64,000 bases of DNA from Candidatus Hebobacterum abditum (GTDB taxonomy: Bacteria > Armatimonadota > Hebobacteria > Hebobacterales > Hebobacteraceae): positions 62,001 to 126,000 of the forward strand of contig JALGXW010000001.1 in the NCBI GenBank assembly GCA_029821875.1, written 5' to 3'. Positions 3,046 to 9,397 of this stretch are shown here, one piece after another. A program made the position numbers and the translations under genes. The first letter of the stretch is position 1; every line of letters begins with the position of its first letter. The notes below the pieces were generated by a model, which had not been told where the DNA came from, made no database searches, and saw nothing but the letters and a program-made list of their open reading frames with translations.

Positions 3046-4737
3046 TTAGGGAAGGTACTCTCGCGTGCCCCGGAGTTCTCCATCCACAAGTATGCGGGCG
3101 GTGGTGGGGGCGGTCACGGTTATCTTCTGTGGTGGGATACGATCTCCCGGGCGGTGACGGCCCTGATAGATGCGGCGAGTGCCGTTCTCATCGGCCACCT
3201 CAATCGTTACCACCACCTCGCCTCCGTCGGAGACATCTGCAGGGACGACGTACTCGAGGGTCTCTTCCCTGGTCGCGCCCCCAGTGGGAGGAGGCGGCAG
3301 CGGCGGCCCGGTCGGCCCGGGGCGCTCCGGTCCGAGGCTCAGCACGATGGCGACCGCGGTGCCGGGCACCACGCGTGCGCCGGCGGCCGGATAGGTGCTG
3401 GCAACGTATCCGGCCGGGACGGTGTCGCTGTAGGATTGGTCCACCGTGCCAGTGGTCAGCCCGGCCGCTTCGAGGTTGTCTTGCGCCGACGGGATCGTCA
3501 TCTCCGTGACGTTGGGCACCAGGACATGGCTGGGGCCTTCGCTCAAGACGACCTTCACCACGGTCCCTTGCCTCACGAGGAGTCCAGGTGCGGGGTCCTG
3601 CAAGAGCACTGCTCCTTTGACGACGTCGTCGCTCGGCCTGGTGCCCCACTGTCTGTAGGCAAGGCCGAGGCCTTCCAGCGTTTCCCGCGTCGTCTTCGAG
3701 CCCATGCCCAGCACGTCCGGGACGCGCGACATCTCGGCCCGTGCGTCCAGCGAGGTGTAGCGCACGATGCCGGCCACCGCGCCAAGGGAGACCAGAAGCG
3801 CGAGAAGCAGCCACAGGCCGCGGTTGTGCATCCAGGCGAAGGCGGCAACGAACGGGCCGGACATGGCGCGCCGGATTCTGCTCCTCGCCGCGCGGACCGC
3901 GGTCGTCTCCTCCACTCTTGGGCAGGCGGACAAATAGCTGAGCAGTTCGCGCGCGGAGGCGAATCGCTTGGCGAGCTCCTTCTCGAGGCAGTGCCCCACC
4001 AGCGAGTCCACCTCAGGCGGAAGGCCGGGACGAAACTCGCTCGGCCGAGGTGGGCGGTCGTAGACGTGCTTGTGCAGGATCGCCAGCTGATCGCCGCCAT
4101 TGAAGGGAGGCTTGCCGGTCAGCGCCTCGAACAGTGTGGCGCCGAGCGAGTAGATGTCTCCCTGCGGTCCGACCGCCTCGCCGCGCGCCTGCTCCGGCGA
4201 GACGTAGTTAACCGTGCCGAGGACCGAACTCGTATCGGTCTGGCTGGGCGCAGAGGCAGCACGCGCGATTCCGAAGTCAGTCACCTTCACAGAGCCATCT
4301 TGGCCCAGCAAGATGTTGTGGGGCTTTATGTCTCGGTGCACGACGCCGGACTGGTGGGCGGCCTCCAAGGCCTCGGCGGTCTCGGCTGCGATGCGCAGAG
4401 CCTCCCTCAGCGGCAGCGGCCCCTCGCGGCGCAGCCTGTCCCGCATACTCTCGCCCTCAACATGTTCCATTACTATATAGTGGTGGGGTCCATCGCTGCC
4501 CGTATCGTACACTCCCGCGATATGCTCGTGCGTGATTCCCGCGGCTGCCCTTGCCTCGCGACGGAATCGCGCCACAAAGGCGGCGTCGGAGGCCAGCTCG
4601 GGCCGCATCAGCTTTATCGCCACCACCCGTCCTAGAACGCGATCCCGGCCCCTGTACGCGACCGCCATTCCACCCTCGCCGATCTTCTCGAGGATCTCGT
4701 AGCGATCATTCAGGACTTGGCCGACTACAGTCGCCAT
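3046..4737 (-). CDS. pknB: Membrane Ser/Thr protein kinase with PASTA domains (PknB/PrkC/StkP type)
   Basis: Transmembrane kinase of 563 residues. The Hanks-type domain fills residues 12 to about 275, with glycine loop GEGGMA (20-25), Lys42, HRDIKPHN (134-141) and DFG (154-156). A basic juxtamembrane stretch leads to one TM helix (about 307-325). Two extracytoplasmic PASTA repeats follow (about 336-402 and 405-472; muropeptide sensors in known homologues). A proline linker (PPLPPPPTGG) and a short beta-rich C-terminal domain complete it. Actinobacterial and firmicute relatives usually have three or four PASTA repeats, so two is few. No partner PP2C phosphatase gene is in view. Upstream lie a small membrane protein and redox genes on the same strand. 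Confidence 0.92.
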   Translation of the reverse strand: MATVVGQVLNDRYEILEKIGEGGMAVAYRGRDRVLGRVVAIKLMRPELASDAAFVARFRREARAAAGITHEHIAGVYDTGSDGPHHYIVMEHVEGESMRDRLRREGPLPLREALRIAAETAEALEAAHQSGVVHRDIKPHNILLGQDGSVKVTDFGIARAASAPSQTDTSSVLGTVNYVSPEQARGEAVGPQGDIYSLGATLFEALTGKPPFNGGDQLAILHKHVYDRPPRPSEFRPGLPPEVDSLVGHCLEKELAKRFASARELLSYLSACPRVEETTAVRAARSRIRRAMSGPFVAAFAWMHNRGLWLLLALLVSLGAVAGIVRYTSLDARAEMSRVPDVLGMGSKTTRETLEGLGLAYRQWGTRPSDDVVKGAVLLQDPAPGLLVRQGTVVKVVLSEGPSHVLVPNVTEMTIPSAQDNLEAAGLTTGTVDQSYSDTVPAGYVASTYPAAGARVVPGTAVAIVLSLGPERPGPTGPPLPPPPTGGATREETLEYVVPADVSDGGEVVVTIEVADENGTRRIYQGRHRPGDRIPPQKITVTAPTTARILVDGELRGTREYLP

Positions 4738-5034: not shown

Positions 5035-6714
5035 TCAGAGGCCGGGGTACGGTGATCCCTGTTCGAGAGTCCCTTCGTCCGCCAGCTCGCGTATTGCCCG
5101 CTGCTCATTCCTGGTCAGGTGACGCTTGTCCCCGGACGAGTTGACGCGAATGGCCCCCCGCGGCTCGACGGGGCACACCCATTCACAGATACCGCATCCG
5201 GTACAGATTGGCTCATGCACCACCGGCCGGCTGACGCCATCGACCACATCCTGTGAGATCGCGTCATATGAGCAGGCTTCATCGCAGATGAGACACTCCT
5301 TGTCCTGCGCCCAGGCGATGCATGTGCTCCTGTCTAGGGAGGCAGTGCCCACGTACAAGTAGTCCTTCTCCTCGATGGAGAACGGTTGAATCGCCCGCGT
5401 TGGGCAAACGCGGCCGCAGAGATCGCAGGGCTGCGTGCACGGTCCGACGCGCGGCACGATGATCGGCGTTCCCAGGGCCTCCAACCCGCCCTCCCCGACA
5501 GCAGGCTGGAGCGTGTTGGTCATGCAGACCTTCATGCATTCCCCGCACCGCACACACGCGGTCACAAACTCATCTTCGGCTAGCGCGCCCGGCGGCCGGA
5601 TGAGGCGCATCGATGATAGCTTCAGCACTTGCCCGCCGGCATCGGTCCGGCGGACCCCGAGGCCGACCTTCGGCAGTGCCACGGCCGCCACTCCTGCGCC
5701 CATGGCCGCGAGCACGCGTCGGCGGCCGAGCCTGAGGTCATCCTCTCGCTCCTCCCCGCGATGACCTCGCGCCAGGGAGATTGCATTCTCGGGGCACACC
5801 GCGATGCAGCTATAGCACTCGATACACTCCGGGCCGCTGTAGTGATGAGGGTCGTCTGAGATCGCCCCGACCTTGCACTCGTTGACACACCGCATGCAGC
5901 GAGTGCATTCCTCGGAGACCCGAAGACGAATCGGCGACAGGCGCCCCAGCCATCCCAGCAGCGCGCCAAGCGGACAGAGATTGCGGCACCAGAATCGCCT
6001 GGCATATCGGCTCAAGGCTATGATGCCTGCGAAGACCAGAAAGGTGATGGCGCTCAGCCTGAAGTACGCGCCTTCAGGCCGGCCAACCAGCCCATATGCC
6101 ATCTGGAGGGGCGACAGCAGAACCGCGATCCAGGGATGATCCTGCACGGCATCGGAGCCGTTCCAGCCGTTGAGTACATCGCCGCCCATCCCTATGGCCC
6201 AGTGGGCCGCGGGCAGGCCGGTCAAAGTGAGCGTGCGAGTGAGCAGTGCGACTGGGTCGAGGAGGTAGACTGCGGAAAGGCCGACGCTGCCGGAGATCGA
6301 TGGCTCCGCCGCCTTGCGATGCGCCGAAGGTAGGGCTGCCGTGATCAAGATTGCGAGGAGGATGTAGAACTTGAGACTGCTGAGCCTCGGCGCGGCCGAA
6401 GGGCGTCGCCCGCGGATCCCAAACAGGCGCTCGCAGGCATCTATCGCGGTTCCCATCGGGCAGATCCATCCGCAGAAGACACGGCCGAGCAGAATCGTCA
6501 ATACCACGACGGTCAGCGCATACCACAGCGCGGGAAAGACGAGCTGCCTGAGCGAGATCATGGTAGACAGCGCGAGCAGGGGGTCCGCACGGAGAAAGAG
6601 GTCCACGGGAACGGGCGACAGCAACGGGTAGGCCGCAACCGCGAACAGCACCAGGAAGCCTGCGGAGAATAGAGCTTGAGAGACGCGGCGCAACAGGCGC
6701 AGCCGCTTAGACAT
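5035..6714 (-). CDS. NapH-NapG-like fusion: polytopic membrane protein with six [4Fe-4S] motifs
   Basis: Membrane electron-transfer protein of 559 residues. The N-terminal half matches NapH/CcoG: several TM helices, a CGWICPMG motif (81-88), a CRNLCPLG motif (243-250) and two ferredoxin clusters (Cys270-280 and 297-307). It runs straight into a NapG-like half with four more cysteine clusters (387-397, 426-437, 474-481, 504-514). Between them RRR at 331-333 plus a hydrophobic stretch (334-347) looks like a Tat-style signal embedded inside the protein. This would anchor the second half across the membrane. The start overlaps the end of the DUF362 gene by 8 bases. The electron donor and acceptor cannot be read from sequence; no nitrate reductase is nearby. 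Confidence 0.85.
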   Translation of the reverse strand: MSKRLRLLRRVSQALFSAGFLVLFAVAAYPLLSPVPVDLFLRADPLLALSTMISLRQLVFPALWYALTVVVLTILLGRVFCGWICPMGTAIDACERLFGIRGRRPSAAPRLSSLKFYILLAILITAALPSAHRKAAEPSISGSVGLSAVYLLDPVALLTRTLTLTGLPAAHWAIGMGGDVLNGWNGSDAVQDHPWIAVLLSPLQMAYGLVGRPEGAYFRLSAITFLVFAGIIALSRYARRFWCRNLCPLGALLGWLGRLSPIRLRVSEECTRCMRCVNECKVGAISDDPHHYSGPECIECYSCIAVCPENAISLARGHRGEEREDDLRLGRRRVLAAMGAGVAAVALPKVGLGVRRTDAGGQVLKLSSMRLIRPPGALAEDEFVTACVRCGECMKVCMTNTLQPAVGEGGLEALGTPIIVPRVGPCTQPCDLCGRVCPTRAIQPFSIEEKDYLYVGTASLDRSTCIAWAQDKECLICDEACSYDAISQDVVDGVSRPVVHEPICTGCGICEWVCPVEPRGAIRVNSSGDKRHLTRNEQRAIRELADEGTLEQGSPYPGL

Positions 6715-7624
6715 GCCTGACGTTCACCCGTCGTAGGTCGATCTCGCCAAGGCCCGCCGCGTGTGCACGCTGGAGATGGCCGATCTGTTCGGCCTTTCGG
6801 TCGAAGAGGGTGGCAGCGTAGGCGTCCACGGCCACCTGGTCCGTCCCGGCCACCACAATGCCCTTGTCCGCCGTCCGACCAGGCCCCTTGGGGCCGTTCG
6901 TCAACAGAATCCGGATGGCATCAAGGATCACGAGGTGAGGCCGCACTTCCGCCGCGCAGTCCACGATGGCCTGGTCCAGACTCGAGCTGCGATGGAAGGC
7001 GCCGCGATCCCATACGGCGCCCAGCATATTCTTGATTCCGAGCGTGAGCCCGGTCGTATTGTGCACTTTGGCGATCGGGACGTTGATGAACACGTCTGCC
7101 CTTCGCAGATCCCGTATCACACTAACGGACTTGAGCGCTCGACCTTTGGGCAGCGATACCTTCTCATAGAGGGCCGGCGACGAGGCCAGACTCACCTGAG
7201 CTCCAGCCTTCCGCGCGGCGGCCTCGATGCCTGACATCCGAAGCACCAACGCGTCCGGCCTGTCGACAGCGTGGTCCACCACTCGGATGTCTCGCGCCCC
7301 GGCCTGCTTGCACAGGCGCACAATCTCGGCCACGATCTCCGGGTTCGTAGTGGCCGCCTGTTCGGCTTTGCGGGCCCAGCCGATATTCGGCTTTATAACG
7401 ACCCGATTGCCTTTCTTCACGAACTTCCCGATGCCGCCGAGGGCCTCCACAGAAGCGCGCACGAGTTCGGCGGGTCGGCGCTTGGACGCCACGGCGATGG
7501 TCGGGCTCGAGGCGGCATCGGCCATATCTGCCCTGACGGCCACGAGCTCGCCGATCCCGATGGCGGCCGCGCCGCCCACAACCGCGCGCCTGAGGAAGTC
7601 ACGTCGGGTGATCTCATCTGTCAT
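6707..7624 (-). CDS. Tat-exported DUF362 protein
   Basis: Protein of 305 residues of the DUF362 family, often found with ferredoxin domains and of unknown activity. The N-terminus carries a twin-arginine signal (TRRDFLRR, residues 7-14, followed by AVVGGAAAIGIGE), so export of the folded protein is expected. Family motifs include VVIKPNIGW, then DIRVVDHAVDRPD and INVPIAKVH, followed by GIKNMLGAVWDRGAFHR. There is no cysteine cluster, so this copy lacks the ferredoxin part. That part may be supplied in trans by the overlapping NapH-NapG-like gene. The two genes very likely form one functional unit in or outside the membrane. Confidence 0.85.
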   Translation of the reverse strand: MTDEITRRDFLRRAVVGGAAAIGIGELVAVRADMADAASSPTIAVASKRRPAELVRASVEALGGIGKFVKKGNRVVIKPNIGWARKAEQAATTNPEIVAEIVRLCKQAGARDIRVVDHAVDRPDALVLRMSGIEAAARKAGAQVSLASSPALYEKVSLPKGRALKSVSVIRDLRRADVFINVPIAKVHNTTGLTLGIKNMLGAVWDRGAFHRSSSLDQAIVDCAAEVRPHLVILDAIRILLTNGPKGPGRTADKGIVVAGTDQVAVDAYAATLFDRKAEQIGHLQRAHAAGLGEIDLRRVNVRHV

Positions 7625-7732: not shown

Positions 7733-9397
7733 CTACTCGTCCGGCCACTGGGCCGGTGATTCCGGCGCGGGGGACGGCTGCGGGCCCGGCTGCTGTTCCT
7801 CGAACGCCTGTTGCTGGGCCGCCAGTTCCTCTTCACGCTCGCGCTGTCGCTGCTCGTACCGGTCCATCCACTCCTTCTCTTCCTCTGCCAGCTCCTCTTC
7901 CCCGAGTCGCTCGAACGTTGAGCGAAGCTGGGCGTGAATGGATGGCACCTCCGTCACGTTGCCCGCGGCCGTGTACCACATCACGGCCTCCTCGGTTTCC
8001 CCAAGCTTCTCATAGGCTTGCCCCATTCCGAGGAGCGCCTGCGCGCGGCCGCTTGGAAGACGCTCGCCCAGACCTCTGCCCCAGGAGAGCGCGTTGTCGC
8101 TCTGCGCGTAGAACTCGGCTGCCTCTTCCCACTCGTTCTGCGAGGCCAGCAGCGTCGCCAGTTCATAGAACAAGGCCGCGGCGCCCAGGCCCCCGGCCTG
8201 CTGCGCCTGAGGAACGGCATCTCGCAGAAGGGCCAGCGCCTCCTCCTGCCTGTTCTCGGTCAGCGCGCGGTAGGCCGACATCTCCTTGTCCACTATCTCG
8301 ATGTCCGCCCTGCCGGCCAGGTCCGCCACGTACTCCCCCCACACTCTGTCGCGCTGCCGGTTCGCGAAGTCACTGAGAAGCTGCTCCTTGTTCTGCTCGA
8401 AGTCCTCGGGCAGCTGTCGGCTTCGCTCCTCGAGCTTCACGATCTCATACCCCTGGGGGCCCTCGATCACCCCGCTCACCTCACCCGGCTGAAGGGAGAA
8501 GACGGCCCGGTCCCACTCGGCGGGCAGCCAGCCCGGGCGCATGCCCTCCATCAGGCCTCCTGTCTGCTCGGCCTCCGGGTCGTCGGACTCGGACTTGGCC
8601 AGCGCCGCGAAGTTCGCCCCCTGGTTCACCTGGGCGAGCAGCTCCTCTGCTCTCTCCCGCGCTTGCTCCTCAGTGCGTTCGTCCCCGCCAGCCGGTCGCA
8701 GCGAAACCAGAATCCGGCGCAGTGTCGCCGCGTCGTAAGACTGGAGCAGGTCCTCCTCTGTCACCGACACCGGGCCGACGACGGACTGCTGGAGCCTCTC
8801 GATCGTCATGTCGTTGCGCAGGCCGCTGGCCGGGTCCGTGTACGTCTCGAGACGCCACTTCCTGAACTGCCGCTCACTCATCGTGTCGCCCTGGCGCGCC
8901 ACTCTGTTCTCGGCATCGGCCGCCACCTGCACCAGATACTGCTCCAGGGCTTCTCGCTGCAGTTGGCTCTTGTAGTAAGCCAGCTCCTGGTCGATCATAT
9001 CCTGCACACGCTGCTTCACCTCGCCCTTGGAAACCGACACGCCTAGCCTTCCCGCCTGCTGGAGGAGGATCTCTTGCTCGACTGCTTGGCCCATGGCGTC
9101 CAGCCGAAACCGCCAGAGCGTCTCCATCCCTAAGGGCTGACCCGCGGCCGCGTAGTACTGGAGCAGCTGAGTCGTGCCCCGTTCGAAGAGCCGGTCGGCC
9201 GTGGACTTGGGAACGACTTCATCGTTGACGCGCGCGAGCACTTGCGCACCGGCTCCCCCGCCACCGCCTTCCTCGCGCGTTGGGATCCTGGCCTGACTGA
9301 AGAGCAGTGGCAGCCCTATGATGAACGCGAGGAGCAATGCCCAGAGAGCTATTCGAAGCTGGACGGCGAAGCGCCGTCGCATGCGCTGGATTGACAT
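7733..9397 (-). CDS. Membrane-anchored SurA/PpiC-type peptidyl-prolyl isomerase with C-terminal TPRs
   Basis: Protein of 554 residues. One N-terminal TM anchor (about 14-34) leads to a SurA-like N-domain (about 50-220), with a VNDEVVPKS segment typical of these chaperones. A parvulin rotamase domain follows (about 225-335: RRILVSLRP, SDDPEAEQTGGLMEGMRPG and VSGVIEGPQGYEIVKLEER). After it come TPR-like helices (about 375-500) and a Glu/Gln/Pro-rich coiled coil. The layout resembles PpiD, acting on the outer side of the membrane on newly secreted proteins. The added TPR region is unusual. The gene is 8 bases downstream of the coiled-coil gene. Confidence 0.85.
   Translation of the reverse strand: MSIQRMRRRFAVQLRIALWALLLAFIIGLPLLFSQARIPTREEGGGGGAGAQVLARVNDEVVPKSTADRLFERGTTQLLQYYAAAGQPLGMETLWRFRLDAMGQAVEQEILLQQAGRLGVSVSKGEVKQRVQDMIDQELAYYKSQLQREALEQYLVQVAADAENRVARQGDTMSERQFRKWRLETYTDPASGLRNDMTIERLQQSVVGPVSVTEEDLLQSYDAATLRRILVSLRPAGGDERTEEQARERAEELLAQVNQGANFAALAKSESDDPEAEQTGGLMEGMRPGWLPAEWDRAVFSLQPGEVSGVIEGPQGYEIVKLEERSRQLPEDFEQNKEQLLSDFANRQRDRVWGEYVADLAGRADIEIVDKEMSAYRALTENRQEEALALLRDAVPQAQQAGGLGAAALFYELATLLASQNEWEEAAEFYAQSDNALSWGRGLGERLPSGRAQALLGMGQAYEKLGETEEAVMWYTAAGNVTEVPSIHAQLRSTFERLGEEELAEEEKEWMDRYEQRQREREEELAAQQQAFEEQQPGPQPSPAPESPAQWPDE

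Follow-up and report, generated by a model that had tools for sequence, protein, structure and literature searches.

In a 64,000-nucleotide stretch of the Candidatus Hebobacterum abditum genome (assembly GCA_029821875.1, contig JALGXW010000001.1, positions 62,001 to 126,000; hereafter the window), two overlapping minus-strand genes encode a protein of the DUF362 family and a polyferredoxin in which a NapH-like and a NapG-like half are fused. We hypothesize that the DUF362 protein is an extracytoplasmic oxidoreductase with the fold of the lactate racemase LarA, possibly dependent on the nickel-pincer nucleotide (NPN) cofactor of that enzyme, and wired to the quinone pool through the fusion; we give this about an even chance. 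We are more tentative, at somewhat less than an even chance, about the fuller proposal that DUF362 is a non-LarA family of NPN-binding proteins, that is, a LarA-fold oxidoreductase exported by the twin-arginine translocation (Tat) system which exchanges electrons with the quinone pool via a dual Sec-Tat polyferredoxin.

The original prediction, made from the letters of the window, had described at 5035-7624 a NapH-NapG fusion and a DUF362 gene overlapping it by eight bases, and both open reading frames (ORFs) lie there, with DUF362 first in gene order and the fusion after it. The features of the pair are as follows.

6707-7624, minus strand: DUF362 protein, 305 residues, predicted to be Tat-exported and to have the LarA N-domain fold (Pfam PF04015, E 1.7e-48; AlphaFold2 mean predicted local distance difference test, pLDDT, 92.2; LarA-family matches)
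7511-7624, minus strand: predicted Tat signal of the DUF362 protein, residues 1-38, TRRDFLRR plus a hydrophobic stretch, end approximate (sequence; RRxFLK-type motif in most homologues)
6992-7063, minus strand: candidate cofactor residues H188, K198 and H211 of DUF362 (conservation; weak hhalign alignment to LarA)
6707-6714, minus strand: eight-base overlap of the fusion and DUF362 genes (ORF coordinates)
5035-6714, minus strand: NapH-NapG fusion (polyferredoxin), 559 residues (ORF, Pfam/NCBIfam, alignment)
5761-6714, minus strand: NapH-like half, residues 1-318, with about four predicted Sec-inserted transmembrane (TM) segments, two CX3CP and two four-cysteine motifs, clusters probably cytoplasmic (NCBIfam, alignment, sequence)
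5656-5724, minus strand: putative internal twin-arginine TM segment, residues 331-353, with R354-R355 or neighbours (VGLGVRRTD) at its end (conserved arginine pair, hydrophobicity, charges, tested homologue)
5143-5613, minus strand: NapG-like half, residues 368-524, with four [4Fe-4S] motifs, predicted to be extracytoplasmic (NCBIfam, alignment, sequence)

Within the window's phylum, Armatimonadota, the fusion is present in 92 of 291 genomes, and a DUF362 gene occurs in all 92 of them, compared with 65 of the 199 genomes without the fusion. A second collection, genome_contigs, contributed 80 loci kept from 182 confirmed fusion stretches, three genomes being in both genome sets; the fusion is found there under the labels Acidobacteria, Desulfobulbaceae and other Deltaproteobacteria, Omnitrophota, Zixiibacteriota, Spirochaetes, Nitrospinota, Latescibacterota, Blastopirellula and others. 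At 73 of these 80 loci a DUF362 gene lies on the same strand within 2.7 kb of the fusion (within 300 nt at 47); one further locus, L073, counted as a miss because the frames overlap, does have an overlapping DUF362 gene, and three of the remaining six misses start at a contig edge. For the Armatimonadota loci (L012-L040; the window's own locus, L011, was left out of the neighbour counts) the distance is within 700 nt in 26 of 29, and the three misses include two at contig edges. Searched for across genomes, the pair is thus adjacent in most loci from many phyla, and both adjacency and shared strand hold despite differing flanking genes and gene orders. Because of this adjacency across phyla, a shared extracytoplasmic redox pathway of the fusion and DUF362, as the original prediction had proposed from the overlap, is supported.

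The number of DUF362 genes at a locus varies: two or more copies stand beside the fusion in many Acidobacteriota and genus g103 loci, and in L030 the fusion is flanked by a DUF362 gene on either side, all on one strand.

In domain content the fusion resembles the NapG and NapH proteins that belong to the periplasmic nitrate reductase system. With NCBIfam, NapH matches residues 236-316 and NapG residues 327-524, each under its curated cut-off (91.4 bits for NapG and 86.9 for NapH, against cut-offs of 269 and 234). Its cysteines were described earlier as six ferredoxin-type motifs, and the arrangement of two plus four four-cysteine motifs holds; the cluster count that this implies is too low. 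Two CX3CP motifs at positions 81 and 243 bring the motif cysteines to 28, and therefore seven [4Fe-4S] clusters are expected rather than six. In an alignment of 110 homologues (three genomes are present twice via two collections), 24 of the 28 are kept in every row and the last four in 109, the odd row having a gap, while a 29th cysteine at position 94 is not conserved. Since these features are conserved across phyla, chance is excluded as their origin. Three of the clusters would be cytoplasmic and four extracytoplasmic, which fits the prediction of Tooke et al. (2017, eLife 6:e26577) for a homologue from the delta proteobacterium MLMS-1. A few genomes carry longer fusion frames of 641-863 residues, with N-terminal extensions and a longer stretch ahead of the last cluster; no extra domain was visible in them by inspection, no Pfam scan having been made of these frames. 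Four of these (L217-L220) lie outside the 110-homologue set, and in L217, L219 and L220 the first NapH ferredoxin motif is CxxCxxC, without its fourth cysteine, so the full cysteine set is not universal.

The join between the two halves had been predicted to hold an RRR-plus-hydrophobic segment, an internal Tat-like signal by which the NapG half would be moved to the outside. The segment is real: RRR occupies residues 331-333, with arginine at 331 in 109 of 110 rows and at 332 in 106. In the 108 homologues used for segment analysis (two rows were dropped because their N-terminus is too short), the exact RR is missing from five; the last TM segment is less hydrophobic than the first in 102, with Kyte-Doolittle values standing in for the apparent insertion free energy (dGapp), and at least one positive charge lies near or after its end in 106, with a mean of 3.0 charges. 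The genome of the window also has a TatC gene. As to function, Tooke et al. (2017) named the MLMS-1 polyferredoxin (Q1NSB0) a NapH-NapG fusion and reported insertion by Sec and then by Tat; in reporter experiments (maltose-binding protein and AmiA) that drew on RR-to-KK variants and tat mutants, the last segment was found to need Tat and the rest to insert without it. The features that they name for a Tat-dependent segment, low hydrophobicity of the fifth TM domain (TMD5) and positive charges after it, are those conserved here. Q1NSB0 and the protein of the window share the fused architecture and five TM segments. In both, seven clusters are predicted, three on the inner and four on the outer side; twin arginines come right before TMD5, which is weakly hydrophobic and has positive charges behind it. 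Tat dependence and topology, established for a homologue, are therefore supported by analogy for the protein of the window, and the idea of an internal Tat-dependent segment is right, yet it was already published in that study. A text search of the main text of Tooke et al. (2017) returned no mention of DUF362, and its passages on Q1NSB0 state no enzymatic function.

As cited in Tooke et al. (2017), NapGH feeds the nitrate reductase NapA. The earlier remark that no nitrate reductase is in view extends to the whole genome at the sensitivity used: a look for terminal reductases elsewhere yielded three molybdopterin enzymes, namely a formate dehydrogenase alpha subunit, a relative of that subunit and a PhsA-like protein, none of which comes near the NapA cut-off. 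The fusion differs from the NapG/NapH system in that no NapA partner is found at cut-off among these proteins, in being one polypeptide with a predicted uncleaved internal Tat segment, and in scoring far under the family cut-offs. NapF and MauM/NapG-type ferredoxins share its four-cysteine repeats, matched at 368-524; here too the matches fall under cut-off, and the repeats are joined to a membrane domain. DUF362 itself may be the terminal redox partner, a point that the original prediction missed.

The N-terminal Tat motif is clear in the DUF362 protein of the window and in most DUF362 neighbours of the fusion. A single-sequence model of DUF362 reached a pLDDT of 34.7 and was replaced by an AlphaFold model built on 37 sequences, which, besides the pLDDT given above, has a predicted template modelling score (pTM) of 0.85; the 37-row alignment retains 36 DUF362 proteins out of 72, the selection having been made by a 75% identity filter. 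When this model was compared with the PDB by Foldseek, all 18 matches at E <= 1e-3 belonged to the LarA family. VIA-align placed twelve LarA-like entries at Z 16.1-19.5 (root-mean-square deviation 2.5-3.4 over about 207 residues), the next entry having Z 5.9, and the region matched is mostly LarA residues 33 to 270, approximately. No meaningful match to PDB sequences was obtained by phmmer or hmmsearch, and thus it is fold comparison and residues, rather than sequence similarity, that support the link to LarA. DUF362 likewise has no Lar_N match, and all 37 members of the alignment match only DUF362 in Pfam; that database unites DUF362 and DUF2088/LarA in clan CL0471, and a LarA study took DUF362 as outgroup (PMC11770544). 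From the model, DUF362 appears to share the fold of the LarA N-domain. Set beside the LarA superfamily (DUF2088/Lar_N; NPN-dependent lactate racemase), it has in common this predicted fold, the clan and, as putative equivalents, the residues described below; it differs in that nothing over the range aligned matches the LarA C-terminal domain, in its predicted Tat export, in its pairing with a membrane electron relay and in showing no significant sequence match to any LarA. An iron-sulfur cluster of its own is unlikely, because the DUF362 protein of the window has only two cysteines and none is invariant in the 37 rows.

LarA binds NPN via R75, K184 and H200, with D72, H108, H174 and K298 as catalytic residues (PMC7583248). 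In DUF362, an H-x9-K pair and a following histidine may correspond to three LarA residues: H174, K184 (to which NPN is linked) and H200 (the nickel ligand). H188, K198 and H211 are invariant in the 37 rows, and H188 and K198 in all of 139 DUF362 proteins, a set that holds only frames above 200 bits from loci L012 upward; the H211 column has histidine in 73 of these 139, and the rows listed carry the histidine one column on, through an indel. A profile-profile alignment (hhalign) to LarA, for which the 17 of 30 LarA loci whose chosen frame read as LarA were used, places H188 on H174 and K198 on K184 with a weak score. H211 follows K198 by 13 residues, and the equivalent spacing in LarA is 16.

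In Acidobacteriota, clustering of the neighbouring genes brought out a same-strand trio upstream of the fusion. One representative of each of the three was scanned by NCBIfam and identified as LarE (316.9 bits, cut-off 150), LarC (205.8, cut-off 90) and LarB (287.9, cut-off 175), and the others were assigned to these by phmmer. The order larE-larC-larB stands directly upstream in 15 of the 21 Acidobacteriota loci with at least 3.9 kb of upstream sequence, the other six having none of the three; L096, with 1.7 kb upstream, has larC and larB. Across the phylum of the window, LarC occurs in 84 of 92 fusion genomes versus 81 of 199 others, with two families that have neither fusion nor LarC driving much of this association, and genome counts were corrected for phylogeny only through the family table. 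The eight fusion genomes without LarC compare with 8.2 absences expected from incompleteness; among the 64 fusion genomes at least 90% complete, there are four absences versus 2.5 expected. In genome_contigs, where completeness is unknown, 40 of the 50 fusion genomes covered have LarC. Neither Acidobacteriaceae-type loci nor the class to which the window belongs are part of this set, which was capped at 50; it includes L066 and L079 (labelled Acidobacteria/Acidobacteriota) and L045 (Armatimonadetes) and leaves out 27 further Acidobacteriota loci.

Outside the Acidobacteriota set, 23 fusion genomes are LarC-positive, and 14 of them have no LarA (Lar_N) match; in the phylum of the window, LarC without Lar_N occurs in 21 genomes that have the fusion and in 34 that do not. 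Since LarC without Lar_N is seen both with and without the fusion, the DUF362-fusion pair could be one of the NPN users without being the sole one. The controls Synechococcus elongatus and Haloferax volcanii have DUF362 with LarC and without LarA. Within the window's own genome the lar genes lie on three contigs (C67, C27 and C30): larE is present twice, each copy on its own contig, and larB and larC are paired on the remaining one. In families f18 and f19 of the phylum, whose limits were inferred from genome ordering, a Lar_N match occurs in 15 of 93 genomes, some very strong, and LarC in none of the 93, so that these families have LarA-like proteins without the known nickel-insertion enzyme.

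Taken as a mechanism, the two genes would encode one extracytoplasmic redox system, of which a quinone-linked wire to the exported DUF362 protein is the part with most support. The NapH half would sit in the membrane and swap electrons with the quinone pool, and the seven [4Fe-4S] clusters, three inside and four outside, would serve as the wire; the fifth membrane segment would be a non-cleaved internal Tat signal that exports the NapG half once Sec has placed the first four. Electrons would then pass to or from the Tat-exported DUF362 protein, with its putative NPN-domain fold and possible equivalents of the catalytic histidine, the NPN-binding lysine and the nickel-ligand histidine of LarA. 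LarB, LarC and LarE act in the cytoplasm, and Tat export therefore fits a protein that is folded round its cofactor there; DUF362 may be loaded with an NPN-like cofactor and exported in the folded state. LarA keeps the hydride within its active site. In DUF362, hydride transfer on the NPN-like cofactor is the probable chemistry and would instead be coupled to the quinone pool, so that a substrate outside the cytoplasm undergoes net oxidation or reduction and not a racemisation as in LarA. We infer the exchange of electrons between the two proteins and its direction, the use of NPN and the nature of the substrate; the LarA fold on which they build is predicted.

Several observations weigh against NPN as the cofactor of DUF362. 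The hhalign match between DUF362 and LarA is weak (E 0.035, probability 1.5%, 32 columns), and LarA H108, R75 and K298 are without clear counterpart: no invariant histidine of the 37-row alignment can be placed on H108, and K298 sits in the C-terminal domain, outside the range aligned to the DUF362 model. The lar genes adjoin the fusion only in Acidobacteriota (none of 53 other loci), and 30 larC loci of non-Acidobacteriota fusion genomes have no DUF362 or fusion within about 1.5 kb. With the two families that lack both omitted, the association with LarC is modest, 84 of 92 versus 81 of 106 (odds ratio 3.2, p 0.007). G228 and G229, of one family and 95% and 99% complete, have the fusion and no LarB, LarC or LarE above cut-off, and the DUF362 protein of G229 still carries the same H, K and H despite the missing pathway; G190 and G232 also have the fusion without LarB, LarC and LarE (G199 has LarB and LarE). 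A universal link to the lar genes was rejected on account of this restricted adjacency and of G228 and G229. In family f20 (G172-G189), LarC occurs in 13 of 18 genomes with no LarA, no fusion and DUF362 in one of 18, so other NPN users exist, and another one in this family is likely. The Methanocaldococcus jannaschii and Corynebacterium glutamicum controls have LarC and neither DUF362 nor LarA; together with family f20 they led us to reject the fusion-DUF362 pair as the sole non-LarA NPN user.

Genomes with the pair and no lar pathway, the confinement of lar adjacency to one phylum and the absence of clear R75 and H108 counterparts would all suit an account in which the fusion is a quinone-linked relay to DUF362 and the LarA-like fold uses another cofactor, a different nucleotide or a metal, never or no longer NPN. 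The adjacent lar genes of Acidobacteriota would then serve LarA or another enzyme, and a Lar_N match does occur in all 27 Acidobacteriota genomes, strong in 13 and no more than weak in the other 14. We regard this account as rather unlikely, in view of the invariant H-x9-K and later histidine, the LarC absences that come close to the number predicted by incompleteness, and the LarC-positive fusion genomes outside Acidobacteriota that have no LarA. It is distinctly improbable, in our view, that DUF362 is an accessory protein (scaffold, assembly factor or binding protein) and that the polyferredoxin feeds another extracytoplasmic reductase. NapGH offers a precedent for such a relay (cited in Tooke et al. 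2017), and the formate dehydrogenase-like and PhsA-like molybdopterin oxidoreductases of the genome would be available; however, DUF362 is the constant neighbour and its predicted fold looks catalytic, and in the neighbour clustering no second gene apart from a DUF6599-like one, and no reductase, recurs directly beside the fusion across several phyla. That the pairing has no functional meaning, the genes being independent and held together by shared descent, is barely credible: adjacency alone is no proof of interaction and the DUF362 family is large, with a genome carrying several copies, yet adjacency and strand persist across many phyla amid differing flanking genes and orders, and DUF362 accompanies the fusion in every fusion genome of the phylum.

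The NapH-NapG fusion and its dual Sec-Tat targeting are already known, and the DUF362 partner is the new part; neither the pairing nor a LarA-fold, lar-linked reading of it was found in open-licence PMC papers, the bioRxiv collection lying outside the search. A 2024 study (PMC11796402) reports that, of over 1,000 genomes, about 15% have larB, larC and larE and no larA, and that unknown NPN-binding proteins are therefore likely; a Haloferax volcanii annotation review (PMC8305020) leaves the same matter open for that organism. With a predicted LarA fold, putative equivalents of the LarA lysine and histidines, and larE, larC and larB in the same gene run, DUF362 would be a named, testable candidate for the missing NPN user. 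If NPN-dependent, it would explain part of the genomes that make NPN without LarA, and would be the first NPN enzyme with net redox chemistry outside the cytoplasm; the published Sec-Tat polyferredoxin would gain a partner and a likely function.

Around the pair in the window, the same strand carries a PpiC/SurA-type isomerase at 7733-9397 and, beyond an 86-residue frame, a PASTA kinase at 3046-4737. Elsewhere, a gene for a small exported DUF6599-like protein stands next to or near the fusion in every one of the 27 Acidobacteriota loci (within L056-L120) and at nine further loci of several groups (L054, L061, L067, L080, L115, L026, L028, L029 and L030), Pfam having confirmed the representative in L097. 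Downstream in Acidobacteriota, a GH127 beta-L-arabinofuranosidase-like gene (L102:9721-11622) and a Tat-type aldo/keto reductase gene (L118:12216-13511) recur, a hint of sugar or sugar-acid substrates.

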